This document shows, one piece after another, positions 37,401-45,538 of a stretch of DNA of 64,000 nucleotides. Within the stretch, counting starts at the first letter, position 1. Each line of letters opens with the position of its first letter. Origin of the DNA: Membranipora membranacea (lineage: Eukaryota; Bryozoa; Gymnolaemata; Cheilostomatida; Membraniporidae). The stretch lies in assembly GCA_914767715.1 (NCBI GenBank), contig OU612073.1, positions 22,508,001 through 22,572,000 on the forward strand. Reading direction: 5' to 3'. Under the pieces are notes generated by a model, which searched no databases, was not told the origin of the DNA, and was given only the letters and a program-made list of their open reading frames with translations. Both the position numbers and the translations under genes were made by a program.

Positions 37401-40400
37401 TAACATTCACTCATGTAAATTTCCAATTTCTCTCCTTTAGATAAATAGTATACAAAGCCAAGTCAATATCACGCAGACATTAGACAGCATAAATAATAGG
37501 GTAAGAGTCTTCTGTTATTTGTAAGAACTGCAGCCAAGACTGTCATAATCTGCCGGCTTGACTAACATTCATGTGTAACTCGATTTTAATGGGTCATCGA
37601 CAGACATTGTATCCAGATCAATCATTCCTCATATCTCGACATTCCGCAAAAGTACCAACCCGAACAACGTGTTTATTGTTATGCCTGTTGTTGTTCTTAA
37701 TGTGTGTAATGGAAAGGCTGGTTGGAACTGGAAAACAGAAAATTCACTCGTCGTGATGGTCCTTAAACAAGATGTATTGCTCGGCAGACAAAATGTGCTT
37801 GTCTTACTGAAATTGAGTAAACCAAAAAGCATATGTGATTGTGCTGGTTCATGTTTTGTTGCTAGACTAAGCCAACCAATTGTTTATATGGGTTTTGCTG
37901 ATTTATTGAATGACGATGAAGTTGAATTTTGACAAATTATATTTTTTAATTCATCAATCAATCCTGTTTGTGAAGTTTATAATGAAGACTATGTTTATTG
38001 GTTCAAGTATCACCAAAGCACACCAATGACTCATAGTATAAGTACAAGGTATAAATAAACATTTGCAAGAATATACCACATTACAAATAAGCAAGGCAAG
38101 TGGCAACCCTCTTAGTCAGGTTATGCCAATTCAAGAATGCCACAAAAAGACAACCGCTTTGGGTTAAATCATTGACCTCTTTTCGAGATCTTCTTTTGAA
38201 GCCATACAAGGCATTGACCTCTTTTCGAGATCTTCTTTTGAAGCCATACAAGGCATTGATCTCTTTTCGAGATCTTTTTATTTTATTTAGCCATACAAGG
38301 CATTGACCTCTTTTCGAGATCTTCTTAGGAGCCACACAAGGCATTGACCTCTTTTCGAGATCTTTTTATTTTTTTAGCCATACAAGGCATTGACCTCTTT
38401 TCGAGATCTTTTTATTTTTTTAGCCATACAAGGCATTGACCTCTTTTCGAGATCTTTTTATTATTTTAGCCATACAAGGCATTAACCTCTTTTCGAGATC
38501 TTCTTAGGAGCCACATAAGGCATTGACCTCTTCTCGAGATCTTCTTTCCATTTTGAGGTTTGACTGATAGACTATAAGATGCCAGTATTTTCTTGAGCTG
38601 ACACTTGTTGACCGAACGTGTAGTTGGGAGCTCACTAATTACTCTGGCTTAGTTCTTAGATCTGAAACCAGAAAGGAATAACGAGAGCAACACAGTAATG
38701 ACGGAGGTAAGGAAGGGGTGGTGGTGGGTAGTTCACAGTCTCAAGGCTAGCAACCAAAGGATTGATGAGTTTAAGTCTCCCACAATTCAATACAAAGTGA
38801 TCACATGACTTCCTTGTTGTCAGATCAGTACTTTATAAAACACATTGGAGTTGTCGGGGCTTGTTGGGAGGGCCAGACGACTCTAACTATTGGAGCTGCG
38901 CTGAGATACTTGAGCATTTGTTTTGGATTAATTTCAGTCTAAAAAACAACTTTAGGAAAGTTTGATTTTTTTAATTCATCAATCAATCCTGTTTGTGAAG
39001 TTTATAATGAAGACTATGTTTATTGGTTCAAGTATCACCAAAGCACACCAATGACTCATAGTATAAGTACAAGGTATAAATAAACATTTGCAAGAATATA
39101 CCACATTACAAATAAGCAAGGCAAGTGGCAACCCTCTTAGTCAGGTTATGCCAATTCAAGAATGCCACAAAAAGACAACCGCTTTGGGTTAAATCATTGA
39201 CCTCTTTTCGAGATCTTCTTTTGAAGCCATACAAGGCATTGACCTCTTTTCGAGATCTTCTTTTGAAGCCATACAAGGCATTAACTACTCTCCATTTTGA
39301 GAATTCTACAAATCCCAGCGGATCTGAGTACGAGCAACGGTATTAAAAGTTGATCAGATAGAATTACCGACATTTTCCTGTGATGAGAAGCGTATATCCC
39401 TTCTGTTATTCGGAAAGAGTGATGATTAGGACCGCTCACTCTTTCCTCTGGTTTTATTCTTAGCGAACTAAAATATATTACAATAAGAGCATGTTAGAAC
39501 TAAAGGTTTTTTTAGTCATTGTGCGAAAATCAGATGCCAAAAATCTGAGAACGCATTATCACCAAAATTGCGTACTCTGATTTTCGCCACAATTAGGGCT
39601 TAACATAGACAAGATACGCATTGGATTTCCAGCGGCCAAAAGCTTTGAGTTTGGCATCGGTTAAACCTTGGCCGGCATACCAAGTTGCCCCCCCTCGGCG
39701 AAATGAATGTAAGGTTAGTCTGGACTTGATTCCAGCGTCGGCCACACACCGTTGTAGCCAAGAATGGGCCTCAGCGGGTGAACAATGGAATAAGACAATG
39801 CTCCCTTCCTGCTGTGCGATGCCTGAATTGGCCGACAAGTATGATTGCAACAGTAGGACCGGGCAAATATCCAAAAAGAGCTTCCTTTCTACTGTTATTG
39901 TAGTACTACCTGAGGAGTGCTTGAATGATGAGAAAGTTATTTTAATTTTTTTTTGTCTTACTCGGATAGACGATCTCCTTAGTTGATGTTCTGGAGTGGT
40001 ACTAGTATGATAAGCCTCCGATGGGCGTAACAATGCAAAGAATGACAATGCAAACATAGCTTTTATCATGAGTGCCTGTTGAGGGCTGAATAACTTATCT
40101 GCAGAGTTACATATTTTTTGGAGTTGTCTGACCTTTACCACATGGTTTGGCCTGATAGCTATTGAATCATTTCTGCGGCGCACACCCTTCAACAGTAACT
40201 GTAGCCTAGGGGTGTCAAAGCTAATTTCGATATAGTTAGAATTGCAATGATGACGGACTGCAGACAACGCAGATCGAATTGTACTGGCCTTCATGCCTTT
40301 CTTAGCAAGGTGAGCAACGTAAAGTTCTATAGTTTTAGCGGAAAACTTATCTTTTATTTTGTGCTCTTTACAGAAGTCTGATAGGCCTTTAACTGCCAAG

Positions 40401-43400: not shown

Positions 43401-45538
43401 TCACTCAATATTTTCAGAAGTTGATTTAGAATTTCGGTTTTTTTAACAATGGTTTTTAATACAATCTCCTTTACTGCACCTTCTTCAGCTCCTTGTCTGA
43501 TTTGTTTAACAAATTTCTCGAGCTTACGCTTCTTTGCCGCCTGAACTTTTTTGCTTGCCTACAACAGAGAGAGAAATGGTGTTAGAGAACAACAAAGATA
43601 TATGTCTTGTTCTAACAAGCAGCTTAATCGGCAGCAAATTCTTCAACTAGTGAGGGGCGATTAGGACCATCCGCACTCACAGTTTGAATATTATATTATT
43701 GTTTGTTTATTTAATTCTAAGATCTTTCTAACTATAATTTTTGTTGTTTACTACTAGGCTTGAAAAAAAGCAACACAGGTGACACAAGGTATTTACAGGC
43801 CTTTTTATAGGCTTTGTCCGTCAGATGGACACCATCAGCTCTTAAAGTCATGTGTCGGTCAAACTTTTTTGACCATCTCCAGCCGACAATAACATTGTTT
43901 GAATGTCTGGTTATAAGGTCGTTTAGTTCAGCCAAACTGTTCATATATTTAGTACATTGACGAGGAAAAACTGTCATAATTATCACTTTGGCGGCAAATC
44001 GGGTATACTGGTTGGCATAGCCCATCAAGTTAGCATACACGCTGCTAGGAGTGATCCCATCTCCCAGATCGTTAGATCCTATCACTAAGATAATCCCGTC
44101 GTAGTGCTGTTGATTAGCTGGGACCTCTAAATAATTGGTCCGAGCTCCTCCGCGGCACCTAAACTCTACCGACAGGTTTCTTCTGCTGAAGTACACCCCA
44201 GCTTGATCTCTCAGTCTTCGAGCATGTGAGTCCCCGATAACTAGTACCTACAGGTAGTTACAGGCTTTCCAAATTAGTGTTAATTCAAGAATACAGAATT
44301 TCGGAATGACCCCATAATCCTTAGCGAACACCCAAATATCACTAAATCTAGTTAATCAGTTCACAAAATTGTTCCATTCACTGTTTCATTACCAATCCAC
44401 AGGGCCTATTATTTCCGCCAGCACCAGATAACAGCCAAGGACAAGCGAGTGGTAGTGGTAGTGGTAGTTTGCCCTAAACAATGAATTCATTCATTGGGCA
44501 GAGGTTAGGAAGTTTTATTTTTTTTTTTTTTTTTTTTTTTTTTATTTTAAGGTGTGCCTTGGGAAGTAATGACAATGAATGGTGAGTGAAATGATGAAGT
44601 GCCCAAAAGGAAGTAGGGAAGTCCAGGGCATATCTGTGATGTGCATTGTGGTACTCGTAAAGAAGCTTGTTATTGAACATAATATTATTATTTTGTTTGA
44701 TGTTCTCAGATTATGAGATCATTTCCACAGCAACATCAAATCACAGCTCAATATAAACAGTATGAACATTGACAAGGTTTAGCATACATTCCCATACTTA
44801 CTCTTGTAATTGAAGACATGTTCAAGTAGGTTTTTAGGAGCTGACAGAGACAAGTAGTTCACAGTCTCAAGGCTAGCAACCAAAGGATTGATGAGTTTAA
44901 GTCTCCCACAATTCAATACAAAGTGATCACATGACTTCCTTGTTGTCAGATCAGTACTTTATAAAACACATTGGAGTTGTCGGGGCTTGTTGGGAGGGCC
45001 AGACGACTCTAACTATTGGAGCTGCGCTGAGATACTTGAGCATTTGTTTTGGATTAATTTCAGTCTAAAAAACAACTTTAGGAAAGTTTGATTTAATCAA
45101 ACTCTTTGACAGATTTGCATTATCTTATGTAAAGAAAGTCTCAATAGTAAAGCTAATGTTTTTAACAGGTCCACCAGGGGAGAAGCACAATAATCAGAAT
45201 CAACCAGTAATGACCTTTCAGTTTGCAATACATACATGTGCCGTTTGTTGTTTTTGTTGTCTTTTGGATATTGAGATAAAATAAACACTGATGAGATAGA
45301 ATTTAATAGTTTATATTAACTGTTATTTTCAAATTTGACAAATAAGATACTGTGAACTAAAACTGTAGGCCCTTATTTTAATCTAATAGGGAATTTTTAT
45401 CAAATTTGTAAAACAGACTGTATCGTAATAAAGTGAAAGTCTTGAATTAAAATAAAGGACTCGATCCAAACTTGATCATGTTGTACATTGTAATTTTAGG
45501 TGAGACAGTTGCAGCAGGATGTGAGAACAATGTCTACG
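34499..45538 (+). CDS. CUBN: Cubilin exons 1-6: signal peptide, furin site and trimerisation segment
   Basis: The ATG at 34499 opens a leader with a hydrophobic core ([16 protein letters not shown]), then SRVKRQ, an R-x-K-R furin-type site placed like the propeptide cleavage site of mammalian cubilin. A second ATG 4 codons downstream could also serve. Exon 2 (35806-35935) encodes a segment with DGNLIFQTA, matching the conserved DGNLIF region before the human helical stalk. Exons 3-6 (36674-36718, 36952-37053, 37441-37500, 45500-45538) are all multiples of three and encode Gln/Leu/Asn-rich heptad-like helix, the segment by which cubilin trimerises. Several N-glycosylation sequons (NIT, NTT) are visible. 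Intron 5 (37501-45499) houses the YR retrotransposon. Confidence 0.88.

Follow-up and report, generated by a model that had tools for sequence, protein, structure and literature searches.

Conserved-loop hairpins at the module ends of Ngaro-type retrotransposons in the bryozoan Membranipora membranacea

Background

How does a retrotransposon obtain several proteins and a full-length genome from a single locus? For Ngaro and DIRS elements we know of no settled answer, and the question is raised by one such element in the genome of the bryozoan Membranipora membranacea. In a 64,000-nt stretch of contig OU612073.1 (positions 22,508,001 to 22,572,000; hereafter the window), repeat comparison and open reading frames (ORFs) identify the minus strand from 45094 to 37942 as a Ngaro-type tyrosine recombinase (YR) retrotransposon, with modules for an SGNH hydrolase, Gag, a reverse transcriptase (RT) and the recombinase, and with split direct repeats in the order A1-[ORFs]-B1-A2-B2. 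An earlier note, made from the sequence of this stretch, had described three minus-strand hairpins that share a loop core and close the coding modules. By examining their placement and folding, and by following them through related families in the genome (339,339,785 bases in 18 contigs), we find hairpins at the same places in distant families and their absence, as a set, from one family. We tentatively propose that they may cover internal polyadenylation (poly(A)) sites that must be bypassed for genomic RNA to be made, the loop being read by a protein that the element encodes.

Hairpins in the window element

The three hairpins were confirmed, both by folding and by a test on the spacers that contain them. 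Hairpin 1 (43645..43684, core GGTCCTAATC at 43659-43668) lies 3' of the SGNH stop, hairpin 2 (42210..42241, core at 42220-42229) lies 3' of the Gag stop, and hairpin 3 (39412..39446, core at 39424-39433), which has a perfect 11-bp stem, lies 3' of the YR stop and ahead of repeat B1; there is no hairpin of this kind 3' of RT at the RT-YR junction of the element, and the placement given in the earlier note was correct. These are the only exact matches to the core in the window, every one on the minus strand and inside the element, and allowing one mismatch adds a single match, at 55101. The core is not rare in itself: four window matches at up to one mismatch were reached by 24 of 100 shuffles, and the genome holds 431 matches against 405 for a reversed control. 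The bare count is thus not unusual; the case for the hairpins rests on placement and structure. In a search done blind and compared with dinucleotide shuffles, the 10-nt core emerged as the longest word that all three spacers between modules share, where 500 shuffles never gave more than 8 nt. The folding z-scores are -2.53, -1.74 and -5.34 for hairpins 1 to 3, and when the flanks were shuffled with the core held in place, 19, 10 and 0 of 300 shuffles, respectively, were equally good and enclosed the core.

The claim that the three stems differ independently stands only in part. The stems do vary and still pair, but hairpins 1 and 2, at 78% identity over 46 nt, are by this likeness diverged duplicates, so that the three are not fully independent. 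The core is missing from the A and B repeats of the element even at up to one mismatch, and Rfam returned no match at E <=1 across 38000-46000, a search that covered family A only.

Near-identical copies in the genome

Searching the genome with the RT gave at least 85 matches, a lower bound since 78 of the 390 candidates found were scored. Fourteen of these, full-length and at 99-100% identity, are copies of the window element (family A); hairpin 3 is exact at all 14 loci and hairpin 2 at 13, the miss being L032, where an A repeat joins at 42195, just beyond hairpin 2. Because the copies are near-identical, their agreement says little about selection and is not independent evidence. A pattern for hairpins 1 and 2 had 39 genomic matches at up to three mismatches, against none for its reversed control, and in older relatives (for example L038, L040 and L051-L058) the motif drifts while the stems are, by eye, partly retained. 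A pattern search of a viral collection gave no match, and no relatives were found there by RT protein or RT alignment.

Matches about 1,440 nt apart were at one point taken for further copies, a reading rejected when five of ten fetched regions proved to be an unrelated repeat containing the 10-mer; the paired copies of this repeat, which contains ATGGTCCTAATCTGATTAATTG (L010, L013, L014, L015, L018), stand about 1.4 kb from each other, a distance that imitates the Ngaro hairpin spacing. Some element copies are internally deleted, with an A repeat joined straight to window positions 42195 (L032), 41861 (L033), 41838 (L035) or 39610 (L008), the last retaining only A1, the final YR codons, the longer hairpin that follows YR (described below), hairpin 3 and one B repeat. 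Such copies may mark stopping points of cDNA synthesis before circle formation.

Hairpins in distant families

The strongest evidence for the hairpins is provided by distant families outside the window, to which copies were assigned by eye except where they form rows of the RT tree. Sites are designated here by family letter and hairpin number (site A1 is hairpin 1 of family A). Family B, with 46% RT identity to family A, has the order SGNH, hairpin, Gag, hairpin, RT, YR, hairpin; its hairpins are found in L041 at 79, 1206 and 4154, its SGNH module in L049, and one or two sites in each of L048, L065, L069 with L070 (one copy), L075, L080, L086 and L090. The three family B spacers share the 12-nt word GTCGGCGTCCTA (0 of 500 shuffles), and the inner stem is GGCG/CGCC, with outer stems that vary by site; in L086 the 5' arm of the B2 stem is gone. 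Family D, with 40% RT identity, carries hairpins at the same three places as family A: 3' of SGNH in L071, L073, L077 and L087, 3' of Gag in L059, L071, L073, L076, L077 and L087, and 3' of YR in L060, L074 and L088. Its three spacers (D1 and D2 from L071, D3 from L060) share the 11-nt word CGTATTAGTCG (0 of 500 shuffles). Family E (L061), which groups near D in the RT tree, has the first site; a site after Gag is absent there, and the Gag itself is, by eye, cut short. Family F has the first site in L078 and L079 and the second in L063, L078 and L079. A hairpin 3' of YR was not seen in L072 and L062, which by eye diverge soon after YR, or in L066, whose stretch ends just past the longer post-YR hairpin, and hairpin 1 was not seen in L075, L076, L086 and L090, the upstream parts of which were not mapped.

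The hairpins of families D, E and F have a 7-nt loop closed by a 4-bp stem, the stems UCC/GGA, GCC/GGC, GGC/GCC and GUC/GAC surrounding mostly G-UAUUAGU-C. An alignment of 18 rows, 11 of them distinct (site F2 of L079, found later, was left out), has 90.9% of its cells paired, where sliding the partner gives at most 56.8%, and its covariation score of 0.450, against 0.150 when shuffled, was reached by none of 500 shuffles. Two of the five measures used were matched by shuffles, namely double-change pairs (2, reached by 83 of 500) and further pair types (5, reached by 29 of 500), and the independent events are therefore few; among the distinct rows the innermost pair is missing in three and the second-outermost in one. 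Folding placed the core inside a stem at each of the 11 family-sites tested, equally good shuffles numbering from 0 to 62 of 300. Selection on a single-stranded structure that closes the modules, as the earlier note had proposed, is supported by relatives whose RT identity is 46% and about 40%, in which hairpins stay at the same three places and changed stems still pair. A site read by the recombinase as double-stranded DNA is not supported, since the arms change sequence while complementarity is kept. A covariance model of the D/E/F hairpins was run on 43 sources. Apart from the 18 rows on which it was trained, it recovered an F2 site in L079 (20.1 bits, with T/C as the closing pair) and gave a weak match of 17.6 bits at the L091 end; it matched nothing in the window or in the 11 family C loci given.

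Any one element has nearly the same loop at its sites, whereas clades that share the host have different ones, which suggests binding by an element-specific factor. No 7-nt complement of the loop occurs in the family A element or in the family B pieces searched (L041, L048, L049), for which reason kissing between loops was rejected and a protein is the likelier partner; the D, E and F pieces searched held two single matches, both in F (L064, L092), and one was found in C (L042). The earlier suggestion of a splice branch point was also abandoned, since the family A loop fits YNYURAY but the loops UCCUAUU of B and UAUUAGU of D break this consensus. A U...A-N-U resemblance to the tRNA T-loop, considered by eye and bringing to mind a primer-binding site, is not claimed, the A/B and D/E/F loops being alignable in two registers. 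With two such alignments possible, position and structure count for more than letters in arguing homology between the two kinds of hairpin.

The hairpins of D and F also have companions. G-rich runs lie within about 40 nt 3' of the D2 and F2 hairpins (L059, L063, L071, L078), including GGGGGAGGGGGG in L059, and a C-rich/G-rich hairpin follows just 3' of D3 (L060) and of the F1 hairpins; these features might pause the polymerase.

A family that lacks the set

Family C has the same ORF order as the hairpin-bearing families, and the hairpin set is absent from it. Its modules are packed closely in L042, with 40 nt between SGNH and Gag, 68 nt between Gag and RT and about 190 nt between RT and YR, and no word longer than 4 nt is common to its three spacers (no shuffles were run). 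Loose pattern matches in the C loci are antisense or away from the three places, one of the scans having printed only stem-bearing matches. In the RT tree, which includes partial rows and where family F fills 35% of columns, the three groups each form one side of a branch, C being sister to D/E/F and relatives (100/98) with A/B on the opposite side. The simplest reading would be that the module-end hairpin is old and was lost as a set in C.

Architecture and splicing of the element

The repeats, exons, modules and hairpins of the window element all lie on the minus strand. Repeat A1 (44854..45094) is 100% identical to A2 (38728..38968) across 241 nt, and B1 (38967..39266) is 100% identical to B2 (37942..38241), the right end of the element, across 300 nt; with both pairs identical, the element is apparently recent. 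A minisatellite of 42-46 nt (GATCTCGAAAAGAGGTCAATGCCTTGTATGGC type) occupies 38187-38547 between A2 and B2, and its copies beside B2 outnumber those beside B1. The SGNH/GDSL hydrolase module (43732..44247) matches Lipase_GDSL_2 at 1.4e-6 (29.4 bits, below the cutoff of 32.9) and Lipase_GDSL at 4.9e-5 (24.0 bits, above the cutoff of 23.6), SGNH being a lineage-dependent component of Ngaro-type elements. It is followed by a small lysine-rich exon of 57 codons (43388..43558) and by the Gag ORF (42396..43397; main exon probably from 43342), which carries, by eye, C-terminal CCCH- and CCHC-like zinc fingers, matches no Pfam family at E <=0.01 and has one relative at 99% identity among the five listed. 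The RT module (40496..42163; RVT_1, 7.4e-19, with relatives) and the YR module (39593..40495; Phage_integrase, 7.1e-7) are both present, as in other Ngaro-type elements, and no methyltransferase-like (MT) domain of the DIRS kind was matched by Pfam at E <=0.01 in the four ORFs scanned, as is expected of the type.

Directly 3' of the YR stop is a second, longer hairpin (39518..39593), with counterparts in families B (L041:3911-4003), C (L042:4174-4268), D (L060) and F (L064). It folds in the one copy examined of each family (no shuffle control), is present even in C, which is without the module-end hairpins, and is possibly another cis signal of these elements; by eye, TGGCGAAA recurs in families A to C.

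The modules begin at 3' splice acceptors, without an ATG there. The first bases after the family A acceptors are 44247, 43558, 43342, 42138 and 40476, and the phases, judged from the longest open frame, are 0 for SGNH, 0 for the first Gag exon, 1 for RT and 1 for YR in both A and C, with phase 1 for the main Gag exon of A; in B they are 0 for SGNH and 0 for Gag, the RT of that copy being frame-broken and YR not included. Just after repeat A1, family A has a leader-like start ATGTCTTCAATTACAAGA|GTAAGT, where a candidate leader exon (44802..44819) with its donor GTAAGT at 44801 would match the phase-0 acceptors of SGNH and the first Gag exon; family B has ATG|GTAAGT (L049). This suggests leader-SGNH and leader-Gag messages, with RT and YR messages that would run through a Gag exon. 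The YR acceptor of family A follows the RT stop by only about 20 nt, and a common 3' end for the RT and YR messages is therefore probable. There would then be one hairpin per 3'-terminal exon, as is observed, which would explain why none lies between RT and YR.

Discussion

In the mechanism that we tentatively favour, the three hairpins would be copies of one cis-acting RNA element, one for each 3'-terminal exon (SGNH, Gag and the shared RT/YR end) of messages that would be made by splicing alternative modules to the same leader; every module end that bears a hairpin would also be an internal poly(A) site. The loop, whose position at several sites of families A and B is roughly that expected of cleavage downstream of AAUAAA, would be recognised by an element-specific RNA-binding protein, for which the zinc-finger Gag is the best guess. 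With this protein scarce, the RNA would be cut at the module ends to yield mRNAs; with the protein abundant, the sites would be covered and the polymerase would read through to B1-A2-B2, giving genomic RNA. Genomic RNA needs B1-A2-B2 in the Ngaro model, and since hairpin 3 sits between YR and B1, a 3' end there would cut these repeats off; the core is missing from the terminal repeats, where the end has to be used. It is a further and more doubtful step, though a possible one, to regard the whole as an RNA switch in which one hairpin address per internal message end, co-evolving with an element-encoded reader, sets cutting against read-through, each clade having its own address (UCCUAWU or UAUUAGU) that prevents cross-talk, with loss of the whole system in a clade whose modules are closely packed.

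AATAAA precedes the motif by 43 nt at site A1, 25 nt at A3, 27 nt at B1 (where only 78 nt upstream were within reach) and 25 nt at B2, in agreement with the earlier note that it stands ahead of two of the three window hairpins, the remaining one, A2, having only CATAAA at -45. Downstream, AATAAA occurs at +68 and +103 of D1 and at +80 of B3. Several observations weigh against the mechanism. AATAAA lies within 50 nt upstream at only 4 of 11 family-sites, being absent from that distance at A2, B3, D1, D2, D3, F1 and F2, and a plain poly(A) reading is weakened because the D and F sites are without it. Gag as the reader is a guess, and the Gag of family C has by eye similar zinc fingers yet there are no hairpins for it to read. 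Hairpin 3 was not found in the single family F copy examined (L064, L089). Taken singly, the stems at A1, B3 and D2 are weak, being equalled by 19, 62 and 19 of 300 shuffles, respectively. Nor are the loops always the same within an element: in L041 the loop reads UCCUAAU at B1 but UCCUAUU at both B2 and B3, and L078 has both UAUUAGU and UAUUAAU.

Much of the same evidence would be expected if the hairpins were solely a packaging or recognition signal, bound by Gag for the selection of element RNA and playing no role in 3'-end formation, with three copies lending avidity on genomic RNA and at least one present in every mRNA. A clade-specific loop that recurs almost unaltered from site to site of an element within one host, pairing that is kept while stems vary, and zinc fingers (by eye) in Gag are all consistent with packaging, which we nevertheless consider rather unlikely, as it leaves unexplained why the sites occur only at module ends and why three of the six A/B sites have AATAAA 25-27 nt upstream. 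The position 3' of the SGNH, Gag and YR stops in families A, B and D would also suit a hairpin of the 3' untranslated region (UTR) through which the host governs mRNA stability, export or translation, or which shields early stops from decay, without control of cleavage; a host factor should, however, favour one loop, whereas the loops differ by clade, and family C retains the ORF order without the hairpins, making such a role unlikely.

More distant analogies fare worse. The element encodes a YR, and what is conserved is pairing rather than arm sequence, both as would be expected of hairpins in single-stranded cDNA that are bound by the recombinase, in the manner of integron attC sites, and mark module boundaries for exchange; in the Ngaro model, however, circles recombine at the B1/A2 junction, and there the core is missing, so that we judge this very improbable. 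The intercistronic trans-splicing signal of Caenorhabditis elegans, the Ur element, offers a parallel in that the motifs of hairpins 1 and 2 in A and B begin 87-109 nt before the next acceptor. Hairpin 3, however, is followed by B1 and by no downstream module, unlike Ur/SL2 signals, which stand between cistrons, the Gag acceptor after D1 is about 400 nt away, and a local candidate leader exon with an ATG and a donor exists. A literature search for trans-splicing in bryozoans returned chaetognath titles only, as far as titles tell, and we consider a signal of this kind highly improbable. Least credible of all is chance or plain duplication of spacers without function: hairpins 1 and 2 are indeed alike over 46 nt, and the core at up to one mismatch is no commoner in the window than in shuffles, but families B and D each carry their own three copies, the D/E/F stems show compensatory changes, and every one of the family-sites tested is enclosed in a stem.

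Set against known systems, the element resembles described Ngaro-type elements (PMC9210276, PMC8547959, PMC4157794) in having the order A1-[ORFs]-B1A2B2 with RT and YR. Amphibian Ngaro families likewise have Gag-like and SGNH ORFs, with SGNH described as lying 3' of YR (PMC9210276), whereas it comes first here. The word hairpin is absent from the main text of these three papers, and a literature search of open-licence papers, with the original Ngaro papers outside its scope, found no description of such module-end hairpins, which points to the set being undescribed as a signal. The closest working analogy may be the poly(A) control of foamy viruses, in which U1 small nuclear ribonucleoprotein and RNA structure reportedly help to decide between premature use of a poly(A) site and its bypass to full-length RNA (PMC3694450); that site lies in the 5' long terminal repeat (LTR), whereas the present element has no LTR, and its sites, up to three in number, are internal and share a loop. 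The conserved 3' UTR stem-loops of L1 and Alu (PMC5135761) are alike in being retrotransposon stem-loops possibly recognised by an element protein, and differ in belonging to one 3' UTR rather than to each module end with a clade-specific loop. A comparison may also be drawn between the module-end hairpins, which would stand in the last exon of each message and have a loop of at least 7 nt, and the histone mRNA 3' stem-loop. The latter has a 4-nt loop and a 6-bp stem and is present in the last exon of every message of its class, so that the two are alike in position and different in loop.

A conserved, clade-specific hairpin at three of four module ends provides a concrete handle on the biology of these elements, being a short RNA with few candidate readers, and the several clades with different loops in one host amount to a natural experiment on the co-evolution of RNA and protein. 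If the proposed switch is true, related elements in one host would be kept from cross-talk by separate addresses.

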